From: Flavobacterium sp. M31R6 | GTDB lineage: Bacteria; Bacteroidota; Bacteroidia; Flavobacteriales; Flavobacteriaceae | DNA: 64,000 nt | Reading direction: 5' to 3' | Assembly (NCBI RefSeq): GCF_013284035.1 | Contig: NZ_CP054141.1 | Location: 3,596,001-3,660,000 of the forward strand | Shown here: positions 14,527-38,649 of the stretch, in pieces | Position numbering within the stretch: position 1 is the first letter of the stretch | How the letters are laid out: every line of letters begins with the position of its first letter | Notes under the pieces: generated by a model | Seen by the model: the letters and a program-made list of their open reading frames with translations, nothing else | Told to the model about the DNA's origin: nothing | The model's database searches: none | Translations under genes and position numbers: made by a program

Positions 14527-16452
14527 ATGGCTAAAGATAATAATCCAAATTCAAATAAATTTAAAGTAAGTCCTTGGTTAGTTTACACTGCAATACTATT
14601 AATTTTTCTAGGAATAAGTTTTGTAACTGGTGGATCTAGCTTTCAAGAGCCTGCTCAATTAACTTCTTCTAAATTTAATTCTTATTTAGAGAAAGGACAA
14701 ATCGAAAAAGTAATTGTTTACAATAAAAATGAAGCTGAAGTTTATTTAAATGCGAAAGCTTTAAGTGATCCAGAACATAAAAAAGTATCAAAAGACGTAC
14801 TGGACAGACCTAACAAAGGTCCTCATTATTCGTTTGACATTGGTAATGACCAAATTTTTCAAACCAAATTAGAAAAAGCAGTTGCTGAAGGAAAATTAAA
14901 AGATTTTAATTTTCTGCAAAAAAGCAACTGGACTGATCTTTTTGTAAGTCTGTTGCCAATAATCATCATCATTGGTGTTTGGATTTTTATTATGCGAAAA
15001 ATGTCCGGTGGCCCAGGTGGCGGAGGCGGTCAAATTTTCAATATTGGAAAATCGAAAGCCAAGCTTTTTGATGAAAAAACAGATATTAAAACTACATTCA
15101 AAGATGTAGCAGGTTTAGAAGGTGCTAAAGAAGAGATACAAGAAATTGTAGAATTCCTTAAAAACCCTGAGAAATATACCAATCTAGGAGGTAAAATACC
15201 GAAAGGAGCTCTGCTTGTAGGACCTCCGGGAACTGGTAAAACATTATTGGCAAAAGCCGTTGCTGGTGAAGCTCAAGTACCTTTCTTCTCTTTATCTGGT
15301 TCAGATTTTGTTGAAATGTTTGTAGGTGTAGGTGCTTCAAGAGTACGTGATCTTTTTAAACAGGCCAAAGAAAAATCTCCGGCAATTATTTTTATCGATG
15401 AAATCGATGCTGTAGGTAGAGCTAGAGGAAAAAGCAATATGTCAGGTGGTAATGACGAAAGAGAAAACACATTAAACCAATTATTGACTGAAATGGATGG
15501 TTTTGGTACCAATTCAAATGTAATTGTTTTGGCTGCAACAAATAGAGCCGATGTTTTGGACAAGGCCTTAATGCGCGCAGGTCGTTTCGACAGACAAATT
15601 TTTGTTGACTTACCGGATATTCGTGAGAGAGCCGAAATATTCTTGGTACACCTTGCACCTTTGAAAAAAATTGAAGGATTGGATACCGACTTTTTAGCTA
15701 AACAGACCCCAGGTTTTTCTGGAGCTGATATTGCCAATGTTTGTAATGAAGCTGCATTAATTGCCGCAAGAAACAATAAAGAAGCTGTTGACAAACAAGA
15801 CTTCTTAGATGCAGTTGACCGTATTGTAGGTGGACTTGAAAAGAAAAACAAAATAATTACTCCAGAAGAAAAAAGAGCCATCGCCATTCACGAAGCTGGA
15901 CACGCCACAGTTAGCTGGATGCTTGAACATGCTGCCCCATTAATTAAAGTAACTATCGTTCCTCGTGGACAAAGTCTTGGTGCTGCTTGGTATCTACCAG
16001 AAGAACGTCTAATTGTTCGTACAGACCAGATGCTAGACGAAATGTGCGCTACAATGGGTGGTAGAGCTGCAGAAAAAGTGACTTTCGACAGAATATCAAC
16101 AGGCGCTTTAAGTGATTTAGAAAAAGTTACAAAACAAGCTCGTGCTATGGTTACCGTTTACGGATTAAATGATAAAATTGGAAATGTTACCTACTACGAT
16201 TCAAGCGGACAAAGTGAATACAGTTTTTCTAAACCTTATTCTGATGAAACAGCCAAAGTAATTGACAAAGAAATTTCAGATCTTATCGAAAGCCAATACC
16301 AAAGAGCAATAAAGATTTTAGAAGATAATAAAGATAAATTAGAGCAGCTAGCTGCAATCTTAATCGAAAAAGAAGTCATTTTCAAAGACGATTTAGAAAC
16401 TATTTTTGGAAAAAGAACTTTTGACAAAAACTTAGGTGAAGTAGTATCGTAA
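14527..16452 (+). CDS. ftsH: ATP-dependent zinc metalloprotease FtsH
   Basis: A membrane-anchored AAA+ protease that degrades misfolded and regulatory membrane proteins. The 641 residues show two membrane segments (about 18-38 and 138-158), Walker A GPPGTGKT at residues 232-239, Walker B IIFIDEID, the second region of homology ending MRAGRFDRQ, and the zinc-binding HEAGH at residues 455-459. The cluster with rsfS, cdsA and psd links it to membrane homeostasis; in E. coli FtsH controls lipid A synthesis, which is known for that species only. A strong terminator follows. Confidence 0.97.
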   Translation: MAKDNNPNSNKFKVSPWLVYTAILLIFLGISFVTGGSSFQEPAQLTSSKFNSYLEKGQIEKVIVYNKNEAEVYLNAKALSDPEHKKVSKDVLDRPNKGPHYSFDIGNDQIFQTKLEKAVAEGKLKDFNFLQKSNWTDLFVSLLPIIIIIGVWIFIMRKMSGGPGGGGGQIFNIGKSKAKLFDEKTDIKTTFKDVAGLEGAKEEIQEIVEFLKNPEKYTNLGGKIPKGALLVGPPGTGKTLLAKAVAGEAQVPFFSLSGSDFVEMFVGVGASRVRDLFKQAKEKSPAIIFIDEIDAVGRARGKSNMSGGNDERENTLNQLLTEMDGFGTNSNVIVLAATNRADVLDKALMRAGRFDRQIFVDLPDIRERAEIFLVHLAPLKKIEGLDTDFLAKQTPGFSGADIANVCNEAALIAARNNKEAVDKQDFLDAVDRIVGGLEKKNKIITPEEKRAIAIHEAGHATVSWMLEHAAPLIKVTIVPRGQSLGAAWYLPEERLIVRTDQMLDEMCATMGGRAAEKVTFDRISTGALSDLEKVTKQARAMVTVYGLNDKIGNVTYYDSSGQSEYSFSKPYSDETAKVIDKEISDLIESQYQRAIKILEDNKDKLEQLAAILIEKEVIFKDDLETIFGKRTFDKNLGEVVS

Positions 16453-25048: not shown

Positions 25049-26446
25049 ATGCAATTAAGCAACGAAGAAGAAGAGTATAACTTATCCCTATCCAAATTTG
25101 AGTCCATGTTGAAAACCAACAAAGTACTCTTTTTTGACTCCGAAGAATTTGAAGAAATCATTCTTCATTACCTCGACATGGGCAAGTCAGCATTGGCCAA
25201 AAAAGCTTTAAAATTAGCTCTGGAACAACACCCAAGATCCAGTGGGCTTAAATTAGTTCAAGTAGAAATGCTCATTTATGACGACAAACTCGAAATAGCC
25301 GAAAAGTTATTGAATGAGCTGTATGCCATTGAACCCACAAACGAAGAAATTTACATCCAGAAAGCCAATATTTGCTCCAAAAGGGATCAGCATGAAAAAG
25401 CAGTAGAAATGCTTAAGATTGCTCTAGAATACACCGATGACTATGCAGATGTTTACAACTTAATCGGTATGGAATATCTTTTTATGGACAATCTAGAATT
25501 AGCCAAAGAAAGTTTCATTAAATGTCTGGAAGAAGATTTCGAAGACCAATCGGCTTTATACAATGTGGTATATTGCTTTGAATTTTTGGATCAAAACCAA
25601 GAAGCAATAGCATATATAAACAAATACATTGACAAAAACCCATATAGTGAGATTGCTTGGCATCAATTGGGACGCTTGTACTATGGCGTAAAAGAATACG
25701 AAAGCGCCATACGTGCTTTTGATTATGCAACTCTTATAGACGAGGAATTTCTTGGTGCTTTTATGGAAAAAGCAAAAGCATTGGAACGTCTAAAAAAGTA
25801 CGACCTTGCCATTGAAAGTTACAATCGAACCATTGAATTGGACGATGCAACATCCTATGCCTTGCTTCGAATAGGGAAATGTTATGAAAAATTAGGCAAC
25901 AAAGTTTTAGCCCTTAAATATTTCAACAAAACAGTACATGAAGATCCACTTTTGGACAAAGGATGGATTGCGATTACCGATTTTTATGTACGTCAAAAAA
26001 ACTTCCAAAAAGCATTGTTTTTTGTCAATAAAGCTTTAGCCATTGACAACCAAAATAAATTGTATTGGAAACGATTTGCAGCCATCAACAAACAAATGAA
26101 CTTGTTTGAAGAAGCCGAATTTGGATATAGAAAAGCAGTAGAATTTGGGGATTACCAACTCGACACCTGGTTATTCTGGGTTGACATTTTACAATTTTTA
26201 GGCGAATTCGAAAGCGCAATTCAAACATTATTACAAGCATCCGAGTACTTCCCAGAAGAAAACGAAGTAGAATATCGTTTGGCAGGATTGTATTTTATGA
26301 TTTCAGACAATATCAAAGCAAAATTCCATTTGAGTAATGCTTTGCGTTTGAATTATAACAATTACATCCTCTTGGAAGATTTATTCCCTGTAGTCTGGGA
26401 GAAAAAAATGGTGCGAAATTATATTGACAAACATAAAAAACAATAA
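25049..26446 (+). CDS. Tetratricopeptide repeat protein
   Basis: A 465-residue protein made almost entirely of TPR helices (for example AEKLLNELYAIEPTNEEIY, AWHQLGRLYYGVKEYESAI, ALLRIGKCYEKLGNKVLAL), roughly ten to eleven repeats, with no signal peptide or membrane segment, so likely a cytoplasmic scaffold. It overlaps aroE by one base (TAATG), implying coupled translation. Partner proteins are unknown. Confidence 0.88.
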   Translation: MQLSNEEEEYNLSLSKFESMLKTNKVLFFDSEEFEEIILHYLDMGKSALAKKALKLALEQHPRSSGLKLVQVEMLIYDDKLEIAEKLLNELYAIEPTNEEIYIQKANICSKRDQHEKAVEMLKIALEYTDDYADVYNLIGMEYLFMDNLELAKESFIKCLEEDFEDQSALYNVVYCFEFLDQNQEAIAYINKYIDKNPYSEIAWHQLGRLYYGVKEYESAIRAFDYATLIDEEFLGAFMEKAKALERLKKYDLAIESYNRTIELDDATSYALLRIGKCYEKLGNKVLALKYFNKTVHEDPLLDKGWIAITDFYVRQKNFQKALFFVNKALAIDNQNKLYWKRFAAINKQMNLFEEAEFGYRKAVEFGDYQLDTWLFWVDILQFLGEFESAIQTLLQASEYFPEENEVEYRLAGLYFMISDNIKAKFHLSNALRLNYNNYILLEDLFPVVWEKKMVRNYIDKHKKQ

Positions 26447-27195
26447 TGATTGAAGTTTTAAGAAAACGTTTTGGTTTATTAGGCCGCAATATCAGTTATT
26501 CCTTTTCAAAAGGATATTTTACAGAAAAATTCAGCAAAGAACATTTTGAAGGATGCAGTTATGAAAATTTCGATATTCCCAAAATTAATGATTTTACCGA
26601 GTTAATAAAAAACAATACAGACCTTAATGGACTAAACGTAACTATCCCTTATAAGGAGTCTGTGATTCCTTTTTTGGATAAACTATCTAAAAACGCTGAA
26701 CAAATTGGAGCCGTAAACACCATAAAATTCACCAAAAAAGGAAAACTAAAAGGTTACAATACCGATTATTACGGTTTCAAGAAATCTCTTGAACCGTTAT
26801 TGCAACCACATCACAAAAAAGCACTTATTCTTGGAACCGGAGGGGCTTCAAAAGGAGTAGCTTTTGCATTGGATCAATTGGATATCACTTACACTTTTGT
26901 GTCTCGCGAAGCCAAACAAAATTGTATTGATTACAGTCTTATCAATGCCACAACATTTGACAACTACCAAATTATAATCAATTGTACTCCGGTTGGAACA
27001 AGCCCGAATGTTGATTTATTCCCACTGATTCCTTATGAATTCTTTACAGAGAAACACATTGCTTACGATTTGATTTACAATCCCGCAGAAACCCAATTTC
27101 TTAGTAAAGCCAAAGCACATGGCGCTCAAATTAAAAATGGCTTGGACATGCTTATTTTTCAAGCAGAGAAAGCCTGGAAGATTTGGAATAAATAA
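26446..27195 (+). CDS. aroE: Shikimate dehydrogenase
   Basis: Reduces 3-dehydroshikimate with NADPH in the chorismate pathway. At 249 residues it is slightly short for AroE. Shikimate-binding SYSFSKGYF, catalytic Lys in NVTIPYKES, NTDYYGF and the nucleotide loop GTGGASKG are all present. It overlaps the TPR gene by one base and is followed by a terminator. Confidence 0.93.
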   Translation: MIEVLRKRFGLLGRNISYSFSKGYFTEKFSKEHFEGCSYENFDIPKINDFTELIKNNTDLNGLNVTIPYKESVIPFLDKLSKNAEQIGAVNTIKFTKKGKLKGYNTDYYGFKKSLEPLLQPHHKKALILGTGGASKGVAFALDQLDITYTFVSREAKQNCIDYSLINATTFDNYQIIINCTPVGTSPNVDLFPLIPYEFFTEKHIAYDLIYNPAETQFLSKAKAHGAQIKNGLDMLIFQAEKAWKIWNK

Positions 27196-27218
27196 AACCC
27201 TCCCTTTTTAGATAACTC

Positions 27219-27256
27219 AAAAGCCCTCAAATGGAACTATCCTTTTGAGGGCTTTT
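27219..27256 (+). terminator. Intrinsic terminator after aroE
   Basis: 13-bp stem (27219-27231 and 27244-27256) with AAGCCCTCAAA arm, then T-run. Confidence 0.85.
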
Positions 27257-27258
27257 TT

Positions 27259-27694
27259 TATAGAAAACCAAGACTTTAGAGATTCCCATGAATGTTTTTT
27301 AGCACACTTTTAATCCGAGTTCAAAGCATCAATTTTGGAGCAGAACCATTTTCCCCTTTTTGTTAGCACCATCCCGTTTTTCGTTGCAATCTTATAAGCC
27401 AAACCCTGACTTATAATGATTTTCACTTCAACCGGGGCTAAGAGTTAGCATCCTTTCTTTTTTGCCAACATCCAAAAAAAAAATAGTAATCGAATTCAGA
27501 TTTCCAACAATTTGAATCATTGAGTACATAAATACATTACCGAACGAAATATTCTTTGCATGTAGATTATCTAAAAACTCTCTCATAATTATTTAATTTC
27601 TATTCTTTTTATGGTTTTCCACAATAGCGACAATGATATAATTCGTACATTTATATGACTATCAGGCTCTTGTTTTTAATTAATCATACGAATT
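27259..27694. other. 436-bp region between aroE and cas1
   Basis: Contains dispersed hairpin element copy B (27331-27440, minus) and an AT-rich stretch. A 52-codon minus-strand frame (27428-27586, MREFLDNLHAKN...) starts well but its last codons run into the repeat and it follows an A-run, so it may be a gene remnant or chance. A TACATTTA near-match to the -7 element at 27646-27653 is the best cas1 promoter candidate. Confidence 0.5.
27331..27440 (-). repeat. Dispersed hairpin element, copy B
   Basis: On the minus strand it starts TAGCCCCGGTTGAAGTGAAA, has an ATC-stem-GAT hairpin with arms TTATAAG and CTTATAA, then AACGAAAAACGGGAT, and ends TTCTGCTCCAAAATT. The ends match copies A and C while the stem is different but still self-complementary. 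Confidence 0.7.
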
Positions 27695-28594
27695 ATGCTA
27701 AAAAGAACCATACTTATCGAAAACAAATCTTCTATTAGTACCAAAAATCTGCAGCTTGTGATTAAATCTGAAATAAGGGAGAGCTCCATCCCAATAGAAG
27801 ATATAGGTTTTCTAGTTCTTGACCATGCTGAAATTTACTTAAGTATCCCAGCCATGAATTTGATGGTAGAAAATAATACAGCCGTGATTATTTGTTCCAA
27901 TAACCATCTGCCAAACGGCATGCTTCTAAACCTCAACAGCCATCACATTCAACAGGAGATATTCAAAAATCAGATTGAGGCTTCCATACCGCTAAAAAAA
28001 CAATTGTGGCAACAAACCATAATGGAGAAAATCACAAACCAAGGTATTCTTTTACAGAAAATTACCCAAAACAAAAACACTTTCGAATTCTTGGCAAGCA
28101 AAGTGTTGAGTGGCGACACTTCCAATATGGAAGGAGTAGCTGCCCAACAATATTGGAAATCATTTTTTGAACATGATTTCAAAAGGGAACGATTTGGTGA
28201 TTATCCCAATAATTTTCTCAATTACGGCTATGCCATTCTTCGAGCTGCAACGGCAAGAGCTTTATCCGGAAGCGGATTATTGAACACATTAGGTATTCAC
28301 CACAAGAGCAAATACAATGCTTTTGCTCTTGCAGACGATATTATGGAACCCTTTAGGCCAATCGTGGACGAAAAAGTATATCAAATTATGCAACGCTACG
28401 ATGAGCAAGAATTGAACACAGTGCTAAAATCAGAATTATTGCAAATTCTTACGCAAACTGTTTATTTCAAAGACGAGAAAAGCCCCCTTATGGTTGGATT
28501 GCAAAAAACAGCGAGCTCTCTGCAGCAATGCTTCACCGGACAAAGAAAGAAAATTAAATATCCAAAATTATGGAACTCAATGGGTACCGAATAA
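27695..28594 (+). CDS. cas1: CRISPR-associated integrase Cas1, type II-C
   Basis: Metal-dependent integrase that, with Cas2, inserts new spacers. The 299-residue product has the Cas1 triad: Glu146 (GDTSNMEG), His202/203 (GIHHKSKYN) and Asp215 in DDIMEPFRP. Sequence style is that of type II Cas1. It overlaps cas2 by 25 bp. Unlike typical type II-C loci, cas9 does not precede it; it is on the other side of the array. The start ATG at 27695 follows a TACATTTA promoter-like element. Confidence 0.95.
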   Translation: MLKRTILIENKSSISTKNLQLVIKSEIRESSIPIEDIGFLVLDHAEIYLSIPAMNLMVENNTAVIICSNNHLPNGMLLNLNSHHIQQEIFKNQIEASIPLKKQLWQQTIMEKITNQGILLQKITQNKNTFEFLASKVLSGDTSNMEGVAAQQYWKSFFEHDFKRERFGDYPNNFLNYGYAILRAATARALSGSGLLNTLGIHHKSKYNAFALADDIMEPFRPIVDEKVYQIMQRYDEQELNTVLKSELLQILTQTVYFKDEKSPLMVGLQKTASSLQQCFTGQRKKIKYPKLWNSMGTE

Positions 28595-28899
28595 TGTGGC
28601 TGTTTGTGTTTTTTGATTTGCCTACGGAAACCAAAAAAGACCGCAGGAATGCTTCCCAATTTCGAGGAAATCTACTCAAAGATGGGTTTAGCATGATGCA
28701 GTTTTCAGTTTACATTCGTCATTGCGCCAGTGGCGAAAGCGCCGATGTGCATGAAAAACGGATTCACAAACTCGTTCCTCCTTTAGGCAAAGTCAGTGTT
28801 TTAAGAATTACTGACAAACAATTTGGAATGATTATCAATTATTTGGGCAAAGCCAAACAAGATGCGGTAGATGCGCCCACGCAGTTGGAATTATTCTAG
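28570..28899 (+). CDS. cas2: CRISPR-associated protein Cas2
   Basis: Structural partner of Cas1 in the spacer-integration complex. The 109-residue product starts MELNGYRIMW and has the ferredoxin-like first strand ending in Asp16 (LFVFFDLPTET), with SVYIRHCAS as the later conserved strand. It overlaps cas1 by 25 bp and ends before a bidirectional hairpin that separates it from the array. Confidence 0.95.
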   Translation: MELNGYRIMWLFVFFDLPTETKKDRRNASQFRGNLLKDGFSMMQFSVYIRHCASGESADVHEKRIHKLVPPLGKVSVLRITDKQFGMIINYLGKAKQDAVDAPTQLELF

Positions 28900-28906
28900 A
28901 AATAAA

Positions 28907-28951
28907 AAAATGCTCCAATCTAGCCTATCACGTGCCAAAAAGGAGCATTTT
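28907..28951. terminator. Hairpin between cas2 and the CRISPR array
   Basis: 10-bp stem (AAAATGCTCC 28907-28916, GGAGCATTTT 28942-28951) with a 25-nt loop and A/T runs outside both arms. It can end cas1-cas2 transcription and also stop pre-crRNA coming leftward from the array. Confidence 0.65.
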
Positions 28952-29005
28952 ATTTTACGATATTTCTCTTTATTTTATTGATAATTAGAAGATAACAAGC
29001 CAACT

Positions 29006-31615
29006 AATATCGTGTTTTCTAATCTTTAATCAAACCACAACCGTATCATAAGACAACCCTCGAATCCCGATAATATCGTGTTTTCTAATCTTTAATCAAA
29101 CCACAACTAATAATGTTTGTAAAAAAGTAAACGTTCTAATATCGTGTTTTCTAATCTTTAATCAAACCACAACACTGGAGTCCAATCACCAATAGAGTGG
29201 AAAAATATCGTGTTTTCTAATCTTTAATCAAACCACAACTATTGATTTAGAAATACACGCTCCACAATTAATATCGTGTTTTCTAATCTTTAATCAAACC
29301 ACAACGATAATGAGCTTAAAAACGCAGCCGATGTAAATATCGTGTTTTCTAATCTTTAATCAAACCACAACAATTATTCAGTTGTTGATTTGGATGGTGC
29401 TAATATCGTGTTTTCTAATCTTTAATCAAACCACAACCGACTACGTAATGAACGATTACAACATCATAATATCGTGTTTTCTAATCTTTAATCAAACCAC
29501 AACATACCGCAAACACAGGAATTGCCAAAGTTGAATATCGTGTTTTCTAATCTTTAATCAAACCACAACTTTATTGATGAGTGTAATCAAATTACATATA
29601 ATATCGTGTTTTCTAATCTTTAATCAAACCACAACTTATGATGCCGATGCAATGAATTCTACTTCAATATCGTGTTTTCTAATCTTTAATCAAACCACAA
29701 CTATATTACTCTTTGTTCCTCATCTGAAAAAAATATCGTGTTTTCTAATCTTTAATCAAACCACAACTGATACAAACGCAAATAAAAATAAATTTCAAAT
29801 ATCGTGTTTTCTAATCTTTAATCAAACCACAACCTGTTTCATCTCCTGAATTATCGTAAACATAATATCGTGTTTTCTAATCTTTAATCAAACCACAACT
29901 ATATTCAGAATACTACTAAGATAAATTTAAATATCGTGTTTTCTAATCTTTAATCAAACCACAACTGGTTTGAAGTGAAGGATGGATATCCGTTTAATAT
30001 CGTGTTTTCTAATCTTTAATCAAACCACAACTAATGATTCGAATGTGTTTTACAAAGAAAGAATATCGTGTTTTCTAATCTTTAATCAAACCACAACTAA
30101 TCGCCTTGTAAGTCACCCATTCCAGTAAATATCGTGTTTTCTAATCTTTAATCAAACCACAACTCTACGTAGTAGCTTACTAATTTAACCCTTAATATCG
30201 TGTTTTCTAATCTTTAATCAAACCACAACCTAGATTTTAAGGCTAAAATTGCGCACCTCAATATCGTGTTTTCTAATCTTTAATCAAACCACAACTATTT
30301 TCTGCTATTATCCTATTTGTAAGCTAATATCGTGTTTTCTAATCTTTAATCAAACCACAACTATATTCAGAATACTACTAAGATAAATTTAAATATCGTG
30401 TTTTCTAATCTTTAATCAAACCACAACCATTACGATATGCTAATTTACCAAAGAGGCAATATCGTGTTTTCTAATCTTTAATCAAACCACAACTACAATC
30501 CTAGCATTACCCAGCGTTTGAATAATATCGTGTTTTCTAATCTTTAATCAAACCACAACTTACGCCTTTACCATCTTGTATGCAACATGAATATCGTGTT
30601 TTCTAATCTTTAATCAAACCACAACTTAGTACTATAGAGTAATATAAAAAATAATAATATCGTGTTTTCTAATCTTTAATCAAACCACAACATTGGTATT
30701 TGGAATACATCTAGCTGAACTAATATCGTGTTTTCTAATCTTTAATCAAACCACAACTACGCTGTTAATCTTAATTGTGGTAATTTGAATATCGTGTTTT
30801 CTAATCTTTAATCAAACCACAACTCCATTTGACGAATTACGTCATGACTGTATAATATCGTGTTTTCTAATCTTTAATCAAACCACAACTTATACCTTGG
30901 TCTACTCCTTCCGTTTGTTAATATCGTGTTTTCTAATCTTTAATCAAACCACAACCCAAAGAATATCATTGATATTTCTGAGCGAAATATCGTGTTTTCT
31001 AATCTTTAATCAAACCACAACTATCTAGCTTTACTTTTAATGTTCCCGAAAAATATCGTGTTTTCTAATCTTTAATCAAACCACAACTAGCTAAAAGAAA
31101 TAGGATTTGCATCCTTCAATATCGTGTTTTCTAATCTTTAATCAAACCACAACTATCTTCGAGTGCGCGAACTTCGTTGCGGGAATATCGTGTTTTCTAA
31201 TCTTTAATCAAACCACAACCTAGGAACTTTGTTATCAATAATTAATTCTAATATCGTGTTTTCTAATCTTTAATCAAACCACAACGCGCCAACACATACG
31301 GATAAGTATCTACTTAATATCGTGTTTTCTAATCTTTAATCAAACCACAACTCGCTTTATAGTACATTATCAACGGATCTAAATATCGTGTTTTCTAATC
31401 TTTAATCAAACCACAACCTAACCGAACAAGAGGCGCAACTTGCGACGAATATCGTGTTTTCTAATCTTTAATCAAACCACAACCAGAGATGGAGGATTAC
31501 GATAGGATGAATTAATATCGTGTTTTCTAATCTTTAATCAAACCACAACCAATAACACAGGCTACTGTTAATACGCACGAATATCGTGTTTTCTAATCTT
31601 TAATCAAACCACAAC
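29006..31615 (-). CRISPR. CRISPR array, 40 repeats and 39 spacers, type II-C
   Basis: The 36-bp repeat recurs with a strict 66-bp period, giving 40 repeats and 39 spacers of 30 bp (29006 + 39 x 66 = 31580, the last repeat start). On the plus strand the repeat starts AATATCGTGTTTTCTAATC and ends AATCAAACCACAAC. I noticed no mutated repeat, including the two terminal ones. The crRNA strand is inferred as minus (repeat beginning GTTGTGGTTTGATTAAAG) because that strand pairs with the tracrRNA candidate at 36376-36401. Spacers 14 (29900-29929) and 21 (30362-30391) are identical. The spacer base next to the repeat's ...CACAAC end is T in 23 and C in 10 of 39. No spacer matches elsewhere in this window were noticed by eye. 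Confidence 0.98.
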
Positions 31616-31669
31616 TGAAAGCTACTGCATCCCTGCTGGGCGGATGCCATACCTTTCAGTTGTGGTTTG
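31605..31669. repeat. Inverted partial repeat forming a hairpin at the array edge
   Basis: The last 11 bp of the terminal repeat plus 6 flanking bases (31605-31621, CAAACCACAACTGAAAG) are perfectly inverted at 31653-31669 (CTTTCAGTTGTGGTTTG). A second stem GCATCC/GGATGC (31627-31632, 31642-31647) lies inside. No T-run follows on either strand, so it is not an ordinary terminator. On the crRNA strand it sits in the leader and would mask the 5' part of the first repeat. Confidence 0.8.
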
Positions 31670-31673
31670 GCTG

Positions 31674-31702
31674 TTTATGACTACGAAAAAACTGTATGTC
31701 AA
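31674..31702 (-). promoter_or_regulatory. Possible leader promoter of the array
   Basis: On the minus strand TTGACA (31702-31697), a 17-bp gap and CATAAA (31679-31674) lie just upstream of the array-edge hairpin. This resembles a classical sigma-70 promoter, not the Bacteroidota consensus, so it is tentative. Confidence 0.3.
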
Positions 31703-31716
31703 AGAACTTATTTAAT

Positions 31717-31857
31717 TCAGACTAGACCTAATCTCTTTTTAAATTCTAATAGCATTTCTTCTTTGGTTTGCCTTTTTGCTAAACCACTTTTCTCAGCTCT
31801 ATCTAATTTTGCTTGAATTTTCGCTATTTGTTCTTTTGTTAATTTTGATTCGTCCAT
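31717..31857 (-). CDS. Small ORF downstream of cas9, 46 residues
   Basis: A complete ATG-to-TGA frame encoding a highly charged, helical-looking 46-residue peptide (MDESKLTKEQIAKIQAKL, later TKEEMLLEFKKRLGLV). It begins 36 nt after the cas9 stop on the same strand, so it could be cotranslated from the cas9 transcript, and ends about 15 nt before the possible array promoter. The LDRAEKSG pattern recalls C-termini of some RelB/ParD-type antitoxins, but no toxin frame is beside it. Function unknown; it might also be a remnant of a longer gene. Confidence 0.5.
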   Translation of the reverse strand: MDESKLTKEQIAKIQAKLDRAEKSGLAKRQTKEEMLLEFKKRLGLV

Positions 31858-31893
31858 AATTATATTTTCTCAAACTTCCCCGAAGGTAAAACT

Positions 31894-34800
31894 TTAAAAA
31901 TCAATCCTTCCTGTTGATGTGATTTTAAATTCTTTTTTTATTAATAAAAAATCACAATTAGAAACTCTTAACCTTAACCAAGGCACTGGATTTTCAAAAT
32001 CAACTTGCGAATTTTTTAAATTATTATCAGCCATAAATTTTACAATTGTCAATTCTTCTTTATTTGAACTACTTTGCTGCATTGCCGTTTTATGATGTCT
32101 GAATTGGATTCTACCATCTCCTTCAAAACCAATAACTTTGTACAATCTCTTCATTAAATCTTGATTGCCTATTTCATTTAACTCTTCTTTATTTTCTTTG
32201 TAAAACAAAACTAAATCTCCTTTTTTTATTTCATACTTCAATGGTAATTGCGTTTTTAAATGAATCATAGGAACTAATGGGTTAGAATTGTTGTTTTTAT
32301 TACTTAACTTATAATAAGCTCCTGCGTCCATATAATTAACCGATTCAAAACTCCTTTTAACATTGCCTTTTTTATCAATTCCTTCATAAATAGCCATTGC
32401 AAAATTCTCATCATTCTGCCCATAAACTTTTTGCTTATGTTCATGTCTAGATTTTGACAATTCACTATGTGTTTTAATTTTTAACGGATTCTTTACTGAA
32501 TTAGCATACAATCTAACTTTGTTTATTGGAATTCCTTTTTCTTGATTCATCCAAACTATACCTTCTAATTTATTTTTTTGTTGAGCATTGGATGAAATTA
32601 ATAAAACCTTATTTGATATCGCATCTTTCACTTTCTCTTTTACCATTTCATCAACAATATTCTCAACATCAGATGCTTTGATACTTTCTAAATCTTTACG
32701 GATTACATAACGGATTTCTTCTGTATTTAACGGATTTTTAATGGCTCCATAAATACTGTCTTGGTGTAATGAACCTCGAATGGTATCTCCTTGTTGCAAT
32801 CTTGGAATTCGCTTTCCTTCCTTATTAAGCCTGAAAATTATTTTATCATCGGCATCTTTTTGAACAATTGCCTTTCCATTTACATCCTTGACAGTTTCAG
32901 CAACATATTGCTTCTTCCCTCTAATTCTAACTATCTTTTTAGATTGCTTTTTAACATTATCAGGAGTGTAATGTGAAACTAAAATCTCTTCTTCAATCTT
33001 TATTAAATCTTCTTTAAAAGTTTTCCAAGGTTTTGAATCTGCTAATAGTTTTCGTGCTTCGCCAAGTTGCCCTTTGTCTTCGTGTGTCCAAGCGTTGGCT
33101 AAAGTATCATATTTCTCTTTGGTCATACAAGCAATTGTAATTGCATCGATGGTGTGATGTGTGTGTTTGCTTCGGTCTTTTTCGTGAAAATATTTTTTAT
33201 CGTTTTCTTGAAAACTCTCTTGAATTCCCCATATTTTTCTGAACTCAGCAACCATTCCTCCTTTTACAGATTCTACTCTTTTGAAATATGATTTTAAATA
33301 GGCTTGGGAATACTTTGTAATAATTCCTGTATCTGGAATTTGACTATTTTTGAAACCAACTTTGGGTTCTTCCCAAATAAAACGGTCATATTTTCCTTTT
33401 AGATAGTCCCTTTTTAAAGTTAAATAATGTCTTCTCCTTATTTTTTTATCTTTAAGCTCTTTGGTAGCTGCTGCTTTTATGGAGCGAGAAATTATTTCGA
33501 TTTCTCTAGTCAAATTATCTGATTCTTCTTTCCAATGTGCAATTCTTGGTAATATCTCAAGATAATTATTTAACTCAATAGGCATTTTATTTCCTTTTAT
33601 CTCTCTATTGAACTTTTGACTACAAAGAGTCTTGTTCATTTGAGAATTATCTTGCGAGCGGCTTCTTGGAACTGTGTGCTCAAAATCATATTTTGGATCA
33701 CTTCCTATTATATCACAAATACTTATGTTTCTTCCCTCTTCATAAATTTCTTGTTTATTTTGCTCTAACCAAAGTTGATACCTTAACAAATCGTCTTCTG
33801 TTGGTTCAATCTCTTTTTTGCATTCCTCAAAATACAATTTCCTTATCTCTTTGGCATATTCCTCTCGATTCTTCTTATTTTCATTTTGATAATCTTGAAT
33901 TCCTTTTCGTTTATTGGCATCGTTTAATTCACGAGCCATTTCAATATGAATTATCGTTTTTTCATCAACCTGTCCTTCAAAAATCAATGTATTTAAAACT
34001 TTCCTTAATTGATGCAGAGCACGCATTGCCATTAGGTTTTTAATCGAAGAAGTTAAAGGACTTCCTAAAACCACTTTTTCATTTCCGAATTCATCTTTAA
34101 TGATTTTCTTTTTAAATACCTCTATATCAGATGGATGATAAAGCTTATTTATTCGCTTTTCATTTGTACAGAATATTTCGCCATCATCATTTTTACCTTT
34201 TATAAAGTCTAAAACTTTTTCGTCTAAACGATTGATTTTAATATATTCATACTGTTTTAATTGCTCAATTAAAACAGGGAATAGTTCATTTACAATTGAT
34301 TCTCTATCAGATTCAATTTTATGAAATTTAATAAAAGGAGTCAACTTTTTATCTAAATCCTGCCTGAACAATGATTCCGCTTCTTTAGAATAAAACGTTT
34401 TTTTCCCTTCTTCTTTATCTCCTGATTTATACTCTTTTATCAAACTATTAATTACTTCTAATTTTCCGTTTTCAAAAGTGTGATTTTCAATTATTTCAGC
34501 AATTTTATCTTGAATAAATTTTCTTTGATTACTATCGTTCCAAATAGACTCATCAACAATTTTTTCAATATTTGCCATAAAAACAGCGTGAGAATACAAT
34601 AACCCTTCTTTTACATAAGGCAAAATCTTGGTAATTGCATTCAAACTCAAACTTGCAAAGTCTTTTTTCAATCGAATTTTACTAAATGCTTTTGCATTTT
34701 TATCATCCAATCCTAATTTTTCTTTTGCATATTGAAATAAGTAAATATCAGAAGTAGAAACGGACAGCAAATGCCATAAATCTTTATAATCTACAGTTCT

Positions 34801-36261
34801 ATTTACTTCAATTCCTTTTGAATTTTTAGTTTTGTATGAAATGGTTTTGATTTTCCAAACTTCTCCAAAAACATTTTTTAATGATGCCGAAACTGGGCTT
34901 GCTGTTACAGTATCATAAGGTTTGTAATTAAACAAATAATTAACTTCATTTGCTTTTGAAGATTTATAGAAATTGAATGTAGCTCCTTTTGGAATAAGTT
35001 CTTTGGCTAAATCTTCAAAACTAAAATTATCTTTTTTTCTTAAAAACTTCGGAATTAAACTTTGTTTCTCTTCTTGTGATAAAAATCGTAAAGTCTTATC
35101 AGATTGAGTTCTAATTTTTATCGTATTTAAATAAGTCCACATTCTATATTCTTCAAAATCAGGATGCGAAATAGCACAACGAGTTTTGCTTTTTTCAAAC
35201 GAACATTTTCCTATTAATCCTTTCTGTGATTTTAATGGTCTTTGGAAAAATATGGCTTTGTATAAATCTTTAGCTAATCCATTGTATTTTTTTTCAGGCA
35301 ATAATTCATTGTCTATGATTTCTCCAATTCCTTGTGTCTTGCAAATTATATTGAACTCTTCAAGGTAATGCTCTTCCCTTGAAGTATATTGGTTTCTAAT
35401 TTTGCCATTATTGTATAAACTAAAAAAATATTGACCTAATGTTTTGAAATTTCCGTCAAGCATAGCTTGGGTAATGTCTTTGATTTTACCTTTTACCTTT
35501 CCTAAATCTTCTTTTCTGTTTAATCTTACAATGATTTCTTCTTTGGCAGTAACAAACTTATTTTCATTGTTTTTAACTATACCTAAAAGAGCATTATATA
35601 AAGTTTTCAATTTGGCTTCCCCTTCGTCTAACTCTTTTTTGAAACCCCCTTTATTCGTTTCATCAAGAATTCCCTTGTCATAAAAATAATCTTTTAATTC
35701 AATTCGAATTTCAGTATTAGAATTACAATCTTCAATTATTGAGATAATTTGAGGACAATGTTCCTCTAATATTCCTTCAGCAGATTGATCCAATCGATTA
35801 CTCAAAAAACCTCTTCTTTGTGCAATATGATAAAAAGCTCTACCCAATTCAAATAAAGAGACGTTTTGTTTACTGGCTCTATCCCTAAAAACATAAGGAT
35901 TAATATTTTCTTCCTCATCAGTTCGTAACCATTTCAAAAATTCAGGATTCAATGGATATTTTTTAAATCCTGAATTTCTCCATTCTTCCACTTCTTCAAT
36001 AGATATTGGACACATATTATTTTTAGAAAGTACTTTTAGAGTTTCATACTTTCTTAATTTTCTACGAAATTTTATTTTTCTTGCACTTCTAAAGCCTGTG
36101 CGTTCTGCTGCACGTGAACTTTCAACTCCTTTTTCTGACTTCACCCCTTCCGAAAATATTCGAACTCCTTTATCAATAAGAGAAAATTCTATCCCCTCTT
36201 TCTCCACTATCGCCCAACCAATCGAGTTTGTACCTAAATCTAATCCTAATATTTTTGCCAT
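31894..36261 (-). CDS. cas9: CRISPR-associated endonuclease Cas9, type II-C
   Basis: RNA-guided DNA endonuclease. The start MAKILGLDLG at 36261 gives 1455 residues; an upstream in-frame start would add 18 untypical residues. RuvC-I has Asp8 (GLDLGTNSIGWA); an Arg-rich bridge helix follows (RSARKIKFRRKLRKYE); RuvC-II has Glu774 (IHIEMAREL); HNH has His862 (DFEHTVPRSRSQD) with later NREIKGNK; RuvC-III has His1036 and Asp1039 (HHTIDAI). All nuclease residues are intact, so it is probably active. It is longer than compact II-C Cas9s (about 1000-1100) but normal for the Bacteroidota group. It is on the opposite strand from cas1-cas2 and across the array. The PAM cannot be read from sequence. Confidence 0.97.
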   Translation of the reverse strand: MAKILGLDLGTNSIGWAIVEKEGIEFSLIDKGVRIFSEGVKSEKGVESSRAAERTGFRSARKIKFRRKLRKYETLKVLSKNNMCPISIEEVEEWRNSGFKKYPLNPEFLKWLRTDEEENINPYVFRDRASKQNVSLFELGRAFYHIAQRRGFLSNRLDQSAEGILEEHCPQIISIIEDCNSNTEIRIELKDYFYDKGILDETNKGGFKKELDEGEAKLKTLYNALLGIVKNNENKFVTAKEEIIVRLNRKEDLGKVKGKIKDITQAMLDGNFKTLGQYFFSLYNNGKIRNQYTSREEHYLEEFNIICKTQGIGEIIDNELLPEKKYNGLAKDLYKAIFFQRPLKSQKGLIGKCSFEKSKTRCAISHPDFEEYRMWTYLNTIKIRTQSDKTLRFLSQEEKQSLIPKFLRKKDNFSFEDLAKELIPKGATFNFYKSSKANEVNYLFNYKPYDTVTASPVSASLKNVFGEVWKIKTISYKTKNSKGIEVNRTVDYKDLWHLLSVSTSDIYLFQYAKEKLGLDDKNAKAFSKIRLKKDFASLSLNAITKILPYVKEGLLYSHAVFMANIEKIVDESIWNDSNQRKFIQDKIAEIIENHTFENGKLEVINSLIKEYKSGDKEEGKKTFYSKEAESLFRQDLDKKLTPFIKFHKIESDRESIVNELFPVLIEQLKQYEYIKINRLDEKVLDFIKGKNDDGEIFCTNEKRINKLYHPSDIEVFKKKIIKDEFGNEKVVLGSPLTSSIKNLMAMRALHQLRKVLNTLIFEGQVDEKTIIHIEMARELNDANKRKGIQDYQNENKKNREEYAKEIRKLYFEECKKEIEPTEDDLLRYQLWLEQNKQEIYEEGRNISICDIIGSDPKYDFEHTVPRSRSQDNSQMNKTLCSQKFNREIKGNKMPIELNNYLEILPRIAHWKEESDNLTREIEIISRSIKAAATKELKDKKIRRRHYLTLKRDYLKGKYDRFIWEEPKVGFKNSQIPDTGIITKYSQAYLKSYFKRVESVKGGMVAEFRKIWGIQESFQENDKKYFHEKDRSKHTHHTIDAITIACMTKEKYDTLANAWTHEDKGQLGEARKLLADSKPWKTFKEDLIKIEEEILVSHYTPDNVKKQSKKIVRIRGKKQYVAETVKDVNGKAIVQKDADDKIIFRLNKEGKRIPRLQQGDTIRGSLHQDSIYGAIKNPLNTEEIRYVIRKDLESIKASDVENIVDEMVKEKVKDAISNKVLLISSNAQQKNKLEGIVWMNQEKGIPINKVRLYANSVKNPLKIKTHSELSKSRHEHKQKVYGQNDENFAMAIYEGIDKKGNVKRSFESVNYMDAGAYYKLSNKNNNSNPLVPMIHLKTQLPLKYEIKKGDLVLFYKENKEELNEIGNQDLMKRLYKVIGFEGDGRIQFRHHKTAMQQSSSNKEELTIVKFMADNNLKNSQVDFENPVPWLRLRVSNCDFLLIKKEFKITSTGRIDF

Positions 36262-36636
36262 TTCAATCTGTATTTTGTAAGATTTTTTAAAGCTATGAAA
36301 AAAATAATTAATCACTTTACGGTTTTCCTCATCAAAACCTAATTACTTTTTATTTACATTTGTTACTGATTAAAATTTCTAATCTTTAATCTTATCACAA
36401 TAAGGCTATATGCCGTAGATGAAAATCTTTAGTCCTGCTTCGGTGGGACTTTTCATTTTAAGTACTTCAGCAAAAAAATCAAAAAACAAGTCAATAAACT
36501 AGAAACATTTCAAATTACAGCAATAAAGAAAGATTTTTCGCTAAAACAAAACTATAAACAAATGATTTATTTTGAATTTTGACACACCTTTACTATCTTT
36601 CGCACTCAAAAAATAAAAACCTTATACATTTACAAA
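36262..36636. other. Divergent region between cas9 and the DUF349 gene
   Basis: Holds the cas9 leader (36262-36360), the tracrRNA candidate (36370-36455) and the AT-rich upstream region of the DUF349 gene. TACATTTTG (36354-36362, plus) and its counterpart TAGGTTTTG on the minus strand are one base longer than the -7 consensus and are the only promoter-like elements seen for tracrRNA and cas9. Confidence 0.45.
36370..36455 (+). ncRNA. Candidate tracrRNA
   Basis: The anti-repeat at 36376-36391 (TTTCTAATCTTTAATC) is identical over 16 nt to the plus-strand repeat, so it pairs perfectly with the crRNA repeat; after a 4-nt bulge, CACAAT at 36396-36401 pairs with GTTGTG (one G-U). Three hairpins follow: GGC/GCC (36404-36414), AGAT-GAAA-ATCT with a GNRA loop (36417-36428), and an 8-bp stem with a TTCG loop (36431-36450) followed by TTTTCATTTT, a terminator. 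This matches the order duplex, nexus, terminator known for type II tracrRNAs. It is divergent from cas9. The 5' end is estimated. Confidence 0.85.
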
Positions 36637-38649
36637 ATGTTAGAAGAAAAGAACGATAACCTATCTCTAAAAGAAACTGAGATAGATGGAAAAACAGCCA
36701 ATGAATTGCAAGAAACAATTCAATCAGAAGCGTCTGTAGTAACAGAAAGTGAAATCAGTGATGCTGCAGCAGAAGAAAATACGGTAAACCCCGTTTCTGA
36801 AACAGTAATTCCGAATGAAAACGAAACAGACGAAAAGCAAAACGTGATAGACGCCATAGCTGAAACAAATGCTGAAGAAAGTGAAGATGAAACGCTAAAA
36901 GAACGTCATGATATTCCAATGCTTGATTATGATGCATTACCGATGGAAACACTTGTAAGTGAATTGAAAAATTTGGTTACAAATGAAAAAGTAATGTCAA
37001 TTAAAGAGCATGTTGAAGAAATTCGAAAAGCATTTTTAGCCAAATACAATCACCTCATAGAAGAAAAAAGGGAAGAATTCAATCAGGAAAATCAAGATCC
37101 TAACGAAGAATTCCAATACCATTCTCCACTAAAATTAAAGTTCGATCAATATTATACAATCTACAAAGACAATAAAAACTTACACTTTAAGAGTTTGCAA
37201 TCTAATTTGAAAACTAACTTAGAAATTAGATTGGCTATTGTAGAAGAACTAAAAGAATTAATCAATCCACAAGCAAACATCAAAGACACTTTAAATCATT
37301 TTAATGAATTAAGAGAAAGATGGAAAAATGCAGGTGCAATTCCAAAAGATAAATACAATCACGTTTGGAATAATTATCATTTTCACGTAGAAAATTTTTA
37401 TGATTATTTGCACTTAGACAGAGAAGCAAGGGATATTGATTTCAAATACAATCTAGAGCAAAAGCTAAAAATCATTGCACGTGTTCAAGAATTACTTAAA
37501 GAAGCTGACATCAATAAAGCTTTTAGAGAACTTCAAGATTTACACAGAATTTGGAAAGAAGACATAGGTCCTGTTTCAAGAGAACATCGCGATGAAATTT
37601 GGAACCAATTTAGTGAACTAACAAAAAAAATGCATGATAAGCGTGAAGTATTGTTTGAAAACTTAAGAGGAACCGAGCTTGAAAACTTAGAAAAGAAAAA
37701 AGAAATTATTGCCAAAATTGAAGTTTTAGCTACCGAAAAAGTGAATGCACATTCGCAATGGCTAGCCCAAATCGAAAAAGTAGAAGCTTTACGTTCTGAG
37801 TTTTTCTCAGCAGGAAAAGTTCCAGCTGATGTTAACGAAGCTACATGGGCCGCTTTCAAAACAGCCGTTAGAAATTTCAATAGCTTTAAAAATTCTTTTT
37901 ACAAAGACATCAAAAAAGACCAAAACGACAACCTGAACAAAAAAATTGCTTTGGTAAAGAAAGCCAAAGAACTACAGGAAAGTCTTGATTTTGCCAGCAC
38001 TACTCCTATCATGAAACAAATTCAGGAGGAGTGGAAAAAAATTGGTCACGTTCCAAGAAAATACTCTGATAAAATCTGGAACGAATTTAGAGAAGCTTGC
38101 AATCACTATTTTGACAAATTAAAAGAACACAAAAGTGTTGAAAACGTTGACGAAGTAGAGGCTTTTGACAAGAAGAAAGCCTACTTAGAAACGTTGAGAG
38201 AATTCCAATTAACAGGAGATCACAAAACAGATTTAGATGCTATCAAATTGCATATTGAAACTTGGAAAAACTTCGGTAAAGTTCCTTTCCCAAGAAGACA
38301 TATCGAAGGTAAATTCAATAAAATTCTTGATGCTTTATTTGAAAAATTAAGCTTAAGCAAAAAAGATACCGAAATGATGCGTTTTTCTAACAGAATGGAT
38401 CATTTATCTGAAAGCAATGACACTAGAAAACTCGATAATGAGAAGATTTTCTTGATGCGTAAAATTGAAGAAGTACAAAATGAAATTTTCCAACTAGAGA
38501 ATAACATTCAGTTTTTCACTAACACAAAAAACGCAAAAAAAGAAAATTCAATCGTATTGGAAGTTCGAAAAAACATTGCTATCCATAAAGAAAGCTTAGA
38601 TGTTTGGAAAGAAAAACTAAAACAATTGAGAAATTTAAACATCGAATAA
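36637..38649 (+). CDS. DUF349-domain protein
   Basis: A 670-residue, highly charged, mostly helical protein. An acidic N-terminal 95 residues (rich in Glu and Asn) precede at least four DUF349 repeats, recognisable by the recurrent W-K-x-x-G pattern (RWKNAGAIPKDKYNHVWN, EEWKKIGHVPRKYSDKIWN, TWKNFGKVPFPRRHIEGKF) and followed by a coiled-coil C-terminus. Function is not established for the bacterial family, though it is very common in Bacteroidota. It ends at a strong terminator. Confidence 0.88.
   Translation: MLEEKNDNLSLKETEIDGKTANELQETIQSEASVVTESEISDAAAEENTVNPVSETVIPNENETDEKQNVIDAIAETNAEESEDETLKERHDIPMLDYDALPMETLVSELKNLVTNEKVMSIKEHVEEIRKAFLAKYNHLIEEKREEFNQENQDPNEEFQYHSPLKLKFDQYYTIYKDNKNLHFKSLQSNLKTNLEIRLAIVEELKELINPQANIKDTLNHFNELRERWKNAGAIPKDKYNHVWNNYHFHVENFYDYLHLDREARDIDFKYNLEQKLKIIARVQELLKEADINKAFRELQDLHRIWKEDIGPVSREHRDEIWNQFSELTKKMHDKREVLFENLRGTELENLEKKKEIIAKIEVLATEKVNAHSQWLAQIEKVEALRSEFFSAGKVPADVNEATWAAFKTAVRNFNSFKNSFYKDIKKDQNDNLNKKIALVKKAKELQESLDFASTTPIMKQIQEEWKKIGHVPRKYSDKIWNEFREACNHYFDKLKEHKSVENVDEVEAFDKKKAYLETLREFQLTGDHKTDLDAIKLHIETWKNFGKVPFPRRHIEGKFNKILDALFEKLSLSKKDTEMMRFSNRMDHLSESNDTRKLDNEKIFLMRKIEEVQNEIFQLENNIQFFTNTKNAKKENSIVLEVRKNIAIHKESLDVWKEKLKQLRNLNIE

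Follow-up and report, generated by a model that had tools for sequence, protein, structure and literature searches.

The locus analyzed here raises the question of how a type II-C CRISPR-Cas system handles the one repeat of its array that has no spacer on the guide side. Such a repeat is present in each array and could give an extraneous crRNA, or ecrRNA (PMC13187072). The II-A systems and several Cas13 systems are described as blocking the ecrRNA by a leader-repeat hairpin (PMC13187072, PMC12080349). For type II-C, PMC12080349 states that earlier studies had found no upstream region that forms a hairpin with the extra repeat, and it names upstream terminators, guide-trapping hairpins, and mutated extra repeats as the alternatives. 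In Flavobacterium sp. M31R6, the terminal repeat is part of a long inverted repeat for which the original prediction had offered several roles, and we weigh these roles against the structure of the locus and its occurrence in relatives.

The window is the whole stretch of DNA that was analyzed (64,000 nucleotides of contig NZ_CP054141.1). It contains a type II-C CRISPR-Cas locus with cas9, a 40-repeat array, and cas1-cas2. The subtype is defined by cas9, cas1, and cas2 in the absence of csn2 and cas4; family profiles recognized the three genes, and no fourth cas gene was present among the ORFs listed at the immediate locus. The main features, in window coordinates, are the following:

27695-28594, plus strand: cas1, type II family (TIGR03639, E 3e-87)
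28570-28899, plus strand: cas2 (TIGR01573, E 2e-18)
29006-31615, minus strand: CRISPR array of 40 identical 36-bp repeats and 39 spacers of 30 bp
31580-31615, minus strand: R1, the first transcribed and probably oldest ('extra') repeat, whose nt 1-11 form the 3' arm of the hairpin
31894-36258, minus strand: cas9, 1454 aa, type II (NCBIfam TIGR01865, E 7e-117)
36373-36461, plus strand: tracrRNA candidate with an anti-repeat (36376-36400), a nexus-like stem, and a terminal stem-loop (from sequence and fold)

The cas9 ORF could reach position 36315 from an upstream GTG. The tracrRNA candidate, which is probably transcribed, sits upstream of cas9 on the opposite strand. Its anti-repeat is identical to the repeat complement at 22 of 25 positions, with a two-base internal mismatch to the repeat, and is the best such match outside the array. 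Since the candidate pairs with the minus-strand form of the repeat (GTTGTGGTTTGATTAAAG...), the minus strand is taken as the crRNA strand, and the hairpin described below therefore lies 5' of R1, the first transcribed repeat.

Other observations concern the surroundings of the array. An identical 30-bp spacer occurs twice in it, at 29900-29929 and 30362-30391 (spacers 19 and 26 counted from the hairpin end). A Flavo-1 RNA (RF01705), a family of unknown role, adjoins cas1 at 27366-27443 on the minus strand and was the only match in an Rfam scan of positions 26000-38000. Between cas9 and the hairpin there is a 46-aa ORF (31717-31857, minus strand) that looks by eye like the C-terminal part of a ParD-like protein of locus L067, where this protein and a ParE toxin (PF05016) occupy the same place. 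A Pfam search of the ORF gave no ParD match, and it is possibly a toxin-antitoxin remnant.

The 17-bp segment 31605-31621, made up of the last 11 bp of the terminal repeat and 6 flanking bases, recurs without a mismatch in inverted orientation at 31653-31669. Inside the hairpin there are a 6-bp stem (31627-31632 with 31642-31647) and three further pairs. On the crRNA strand, the parts of the hairpin are the following:

31653-31669, minus strand: 5' arm, the complement of R1 nt 1-11 (31659-31669) and of 6 more bases
31622-31652, minus strand: loop with its inner stem, highly conserved among the long-class hairpins (alignment A2, inner-stem compensations)
31616-31621, minus strand: 3' arm bases upstream of R1, with which the would-be ecrRNA guide (about 31616-31640) ends at its 3' side (from pairing and covariation)

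The long match and the second stem inside it are exact, as had been described from the letters alone, and the proposal that the first repeat is paired in cis with an anti-repeat-like arm holds, with R1 nt 1-11 and the six bases upstream of them perfectly paired. The predicted fold of the minus-strand RNA reaches -42.1 kcal/mol, while shuffled sequences average -17.6 (z -8.0, with none of 200 shuffles as good), and the plus-strand fold has a z of -7.2. We regard the existence of the structure as near certain. A 301-bp query found no second copy of the hairpin in the same genome, the next matches being array repeats and short chance matches (E 0.026 and worse).

Two known kinds of arrangement coincide in this stem. 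As in a leader-repeat hairpin, the first repeat is paired with RNA from upstream of the array, and positions 31616-31640 form the 3' side of the stem, which gives the helix between an ecrRNA guide of about 25 nt and the region upstream of the guide that PMC12080349 describes as a guide trap. That paper also reports terminators upstream of some II-C arrays, and the stem could accordingly be a terminator or insulator that stops cas9 read-through into the array. However, it ends inside R1 and has no T run after it on either strand, and the terminator scan returned a single hit (31575-31589) and did not report the stem. As both the sequence and the scan thus fail to show the stem and U run of a Rho-independent terminator, we consider this explanation very unlikely.

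The distribution of the hairpin was examined in several ways. Cas9 matches at E 1e-50 or better were present in 48 of 398 Flavobacterium genomes. A two-arm pattern in which only the arms were fixed (AAACCACAAC, 20-50 any bases, GTTGTGGTTTGAT) occurred in 47 of 398 Flavobacterium genomes, one copy each, while the reversed-pattern control gave 0. When 30 of the pattern loci were fetched, 26 had a Cas9 match and four had none. Under the stricter filters of model searches over many genomes, which can miss weak copies, a covariance model was run on 397 genomes sampled from the family and 296 sampled from the order. It found the element in 11 of the former, which include the own genome and represent 10 of the 237 genera, and in 10 of the latter, all of them from the same genus or family as the window. 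Of the ten family matches other than the own genome, nine were confirmed by eye as array leaders, and these represent eight genera in addition to the own one; the family match L157 had no repeat of this type, and in the order search L169 had no such repeat and L170 was weak. The carriers include F. glaciei, F. gawalongense, F. granuli, F. omnivorum, F. croceum, Confluentibacter lentus, and Gelidibacter salicanalis. By eye, the arm was not seen at 16 listed loci that have other GTTGTGG-type repeats outside this repeat family and a readable upstream flank.

For comparisons anchored on Cas9 we used 47 loci (44 of 80 named loci, two others, and the window), the remainder lacking a repeat of this type, an array, or enough upstream sequence. 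Of the 47 loci, 29 have the arm and 18 do not, and hence the hairpin is dispensable. The hairpins fall into three classes (long, mid, and short), all of which use the repeat. These classes require at least 15 changes on the Cas9 tree, yet they are more clustered than shuffled labels. The 66-nt element of the window is identical in locus L119 of genome G203, which has a very different Cas9 whose C-terminal stretch reaches about 34 % identity to the closest of seven query Cas9s. This suggests that either the array start or the Cas9 was exchanged. At four other loci (L047, L049, L064, and L066), the start of the first repeat is replaced by a palindromic insertion, ACAAACACC...GGTGT(G)TTTGTG, upstream of the first good repeat; this insertion belongs to the F. 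columnare / F. covae group among others.

Compensatory changes were assessed in three alignments. In the long class (alignment A2, 19 hairpins of which 14 are distinct), 97.3 % of cells pair and five pairs are two-sided, a number reached in none of 500 shuffles, while the number of further pair types was not above the shuffles (336 of 500 as high). The eight hairpins of the mid and short classes have 96.2 % of cells paired and four two-sided pairs (3 of 500 shuffles as many). In the broad alignment A4 of 21 diverse hairpins, 92.8 % of cells pair; the 36 two-sided cells and the covariation score of 0.244 were matched by none of 500 shuffles, and the number of two-sided pairs (seven) was not above them (64 of 500 as high). 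For the first six flank pairs of 37 distinct pattern inserts, 195 of 222 cells pair, compared with a mean of 151 (maximum 174) in 10,000 arm swaps and a mean of 87 (maximum 108) in 2,000 composition-shuffled inserts. The first flank pair alone is T-A in 15 inserts, G-C in 14, A-T in one, C-G in one, and unpaired in six. Eleven relatives' hairpins folded singly gave z values from -4.9 to -9.3. The covariation check asked for at related loci with the same repeat thus came out in favor of the hairpin, with the arm kept by compensatory change. It follows that the hairpin is neither chance nor a decayed repeat, and the original view that a match reaching beyond the repeat is more than a decayed copy is upheld.

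On the crRNA strand, G-U occurs in seven cells and A-C in one. The other strand would pair less well, and an RNA on the crRNA strand is therefore the likelier target of selection, although these numbers are small.

An RNA of this shape might also act as a natural guide that aims Cas9 at a host site, in the manner of tracr-L, as had been suggested. The would-be guide is indeed nearly constant in the long class, but it differs in the other classes and is buried in the stem. With one guide length and one PAM tried, the own genome had no exact match to the last 12 nt of the guide (PAM-side) followed by NNNNNTAAA. A scan allowing up to three mismatches returned 121 sites, compared with 94 in the reversed control; the best site (one mismatch) is far from the CRISPR locus. 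Moreover, tracr-L is a long form of the tracrRNA, and here the tracrRNA candidate is 4.7 kb away on the other strand. This part of the original prediction found no support, and we give the guide-like reading almost no credence.

The role of the hairpin depends on which end of the array it marks. R1 is off consensus in 9 of 34 arrays, compared with 0 of 34 each for R2, R3, and the last two repeats before the end, and 0 of 31 for the last repeat, as seen with a repeat finder that needs a shared exact 14-mer and hence favors intact repeats. The opposite end carries a feature of its own:

28900-29005, minus strand: conserved block that follows the last repeat and contains a terminator-like stem; probable acquisition leader

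In the window and in all 28 relatives listed, this block at the cas2 end begins with AGTTGG or a close variant and holds the terminator-like stem, and the same block directly follows the single repeat of two spacer-less loci. In the II-C system of F. columnare, new spacers enter at the repeat-nt-36 end, according to the accessible text of PMC8092290. The mutable R1, the block at the cas2 end, and the F. columnare data together indicate that the hairpin is at the transcription-upstream, leader-distal end. With acquisition at the other end, the spacer next to the hairpin would be the oldest and not the newest. The order could not be read from the spacers themselves, none of which was common to different loci among 44 arrays with 1,142 spacers. 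At L056 (F. succinicans; near 14656-14691) and L148 (minus strand), the hairpin is followed by one repeat and then by the conserved cas2-side block; these loci are either empty arrays or arrays collapsed in draft assemblies.

The same evidence does not support two of the earlier suggestions, namely that the hairpin region is the acquisition leader and that the hairpin guides integration. The perfect inverted repeat at an array edge would suit a DNA-level signal, such as a cruciform or an anchor, for spacer integration or for the array boundary, but acquisition is probably at the other end (PMC8092290), the crRNA strand tolerates G-U pairs, and the sequence beside R1 varies between the classes with its pairing kept. 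We therefore find such a signal highly improbable. Alternatively, the hairpin could mainly speed the maturation of the neighboring crRNA, as is reported for the first spacer in the II-A system of S. pyogenes, whose leader-repeat hairpin has the same anatomy (PMC12080349, PMC13187072). However, the neighbor here is probably the oldest spacer (PMC8092290), and prioritizing it would be a poor strategy, and the Cas13 version is described without such an effect (PMC13187072). This explanation is decidedly unlikely.

The original prediction also held that the paired arm would compete with the tracrRNA, and the computed energies agree with it. The predicted binding of the tracrRNA to R1 is -15.7 kcal/mol with the hairpin and -27.1 kcal/mol without the 5' arm, while the 39 internal repeats have a mean of -22.7 kcal/mol (-17.7 to -26.3). 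In the predicted fold, the leader occupies R1 nt 1-10 and the tracrRNA nt 11-26, so that the tracrRNA loses R1 nt 1-8, the lower stem used by the internal repeats. As in a leader-repeat hairpin, the predicted pairing thus covers the part of the repeat that the tracrRNA needs.

We consider it probable, with reasonable though not high confidence, that the II-C pre-crRNA begins with a leader-repeat RNA hairpin that keeps the spacer-less R1 from yielding a Cas9-loadable ecrRNA. Transcription would enter the array from upstream. R1 nt 1-11, the part that would form the Cas9-recognized lower stem with the tracrRNA, would be held, together with the would-be guide bases of the ecrRNA, in a stem of at least 17 pairs, and the tracrRNA would be left with only the upper part of R1. 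With both the start of R1 and the guide locked, no Cas9-loadable ecrRNA would be expected, and R1 itself could stay intact while the loading of ecrRNA on Cas9 is avoided, presumably to the benefit of immunity. An intact R1 might be worth keeping as the only repeat of an empty array, and it may carry the promoter of the first spacer. Several points count against the leader-repeat reading: the tracrRNA is still predicted to pair with R1 nt 11-26, the arm is missing from the 18 Cas9-anchored loci noted above, and PMC12080349 reports that in II-C systems the upstream region forms no hairpin with the extra repeat.

The hairpin shares features with each of the described solutions. Like the II-A leader-repeat hairpin (Liao et al. 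2022, via PMC12080349 and PMC13187072), it belongs to a Cas9 system, and the extra repeat at the start of its array is paired with upstream RNA in a way that would hinder the tracrRNA; unlike it, the Flavobacterium locus is of type II-C, probably acquires at the opposite end, and probably has its extra repeat and adjoining spacer as the oldest, and we infer the block of ecrRNA here. In the Cas13 systems (type VI-B and others), upstream RNA and the first repeat likewise form a hairpin, which there prevents ecrRNA, but the effector is Cas13 and not Cas9, there is no tracrRNA, and acquisition takes place at the hairpin end (PMC13187072). With the II-C features of PMC12080349 it has in common the subtype, an extra repeat that is probably the oldest, a stem that also traps the guide, and arm-less loci that often have a decayed first repeat. 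It differs from them in that the stem takes in R1 nt 1-11 and has no terminator tail. The Flavobacterium hairpin thus joins a II-A type of pairing with a II-C guide trap.

We also compared the presence of the hairpin with the decay of R1. The repeat is intact in 25 of the 29 loci with the arm and in 6 of the 18 loci without it (Fisher p 0.0004); three of the latter were scored as decayed because a decayed repeat precedes the first good one. The minimum-energy pairing of R1 was rejected as a test of the hairpin, as 10 to 65 of 100 shuffles per locus also passed, and it was replaced by a count of helix pairs crossing the repeat boundary and by the presence of the arm alone. By the helix count, 26 of the 47 loci have at least 15 of 16 pairs and 29 have at least 14. 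At the threshold of 14, R1 is intact in 28 of 29 loci with the helix and 6 of 18 without it (p 4e-6), and at 13 the association is weaker (30 of 36 and 4 of 11, p 0.005). When relatedness was considered on the Cas9 tree, arm-based scoring left nine independent pairs (4.0 in the same direction and 1.1 in the opposite one; median p 0.375, not significant), while scoring by a working helix left ten pairs (6.4 and 0.1; median p 0.031) but is partly circular, since a mutated R1 breaks the helix. These results are suggestive of an association between hairpin loss and R1 decay, weak once relatedness is considered.

Upstream of the 5' arm lies another conserved element:

31672-31707, minus strand: promoter-like block, GTTCTTTGACATA ... 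ATAAACA, the end of which lies 3 bases upstream of the 5' arm (from conservation)

Of 26 hairpin loci, 24 have TTGACA at 28-34 bases upstream of the arm and 23 have TAAACA at 9-10 bases upstream of it, with a spacing of 13 to 19 that is unlike a standard promoter. A sigma-70-type promoter scan of 31500-32000 found none, so the proposal that this block acts as a promoter draws on its conservation. There are two occurrences of GTTCTTTGACATA in the genome; at the second site no tRNA was found, and a DUF805b RNA (Rfam) is located 0.4 kb away.

The distance from the end of this block to the 5' arm hardly varies, which would allow transcription to start at the base of the stem, and helices of 17 or more pairs would be suitable substrates for a double-strand RNase. 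The hairpin might therefore be a 5'-end stem that stabilizes the pre-crRNA or gives an entry site for RNase III, its complementarity to the repeat being incidental. However, the promoter and start site are putative, and a stabilizing stem has no need to use the repeat, yet all three hairpin classes do. We judge this alternative unlikely.

If the leader-repeat reading is extended to the upstream block, the II-C arrays of Flavobacteriaceae would have a dedicated upstream promoter with a transcript starting at the hairpin base. The hairpin would then be a self-contained 'silent start' module that leaves the founding repeat intact, so that an empty array could be re-seeded at the other end, yet hidden from the tracrRNA and Cas9. 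It would have evolved as a leader-repeat hairpin at the array end that takes up no spacers, in a subtype described as lacking one. Such a module would not be strictly tied to the Cas9 type, given that the element is letter-identical in the window and beside the divergent Cas9 C-terminal region of G203. We put this extension forward tentatively, at somewhat less than even confidence.

Among the open-access papers listed in literature searches, none describes such a hairpin in Flavobacterium or another II-C host. The word 'Flavobacter' is absent from the main text of PMC12080349, the supplementary data set of which may hold such loci, and the hairpin is not mentioned in the accessible text of PMC5006608 (on Riemerella), PMC5395568, or PMC12609912. 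For these bacteria, the hairpin element marks the 5' end and the strand of the arrays, and it affects the annotation of II-C arrays and of their transcription start. If the proposed function is true, the solution of the II-A and Cas13 systems also exists where the extra repeat is the oldest and could simply decay, which raises the testable question of why such an extra repeat stays intact.
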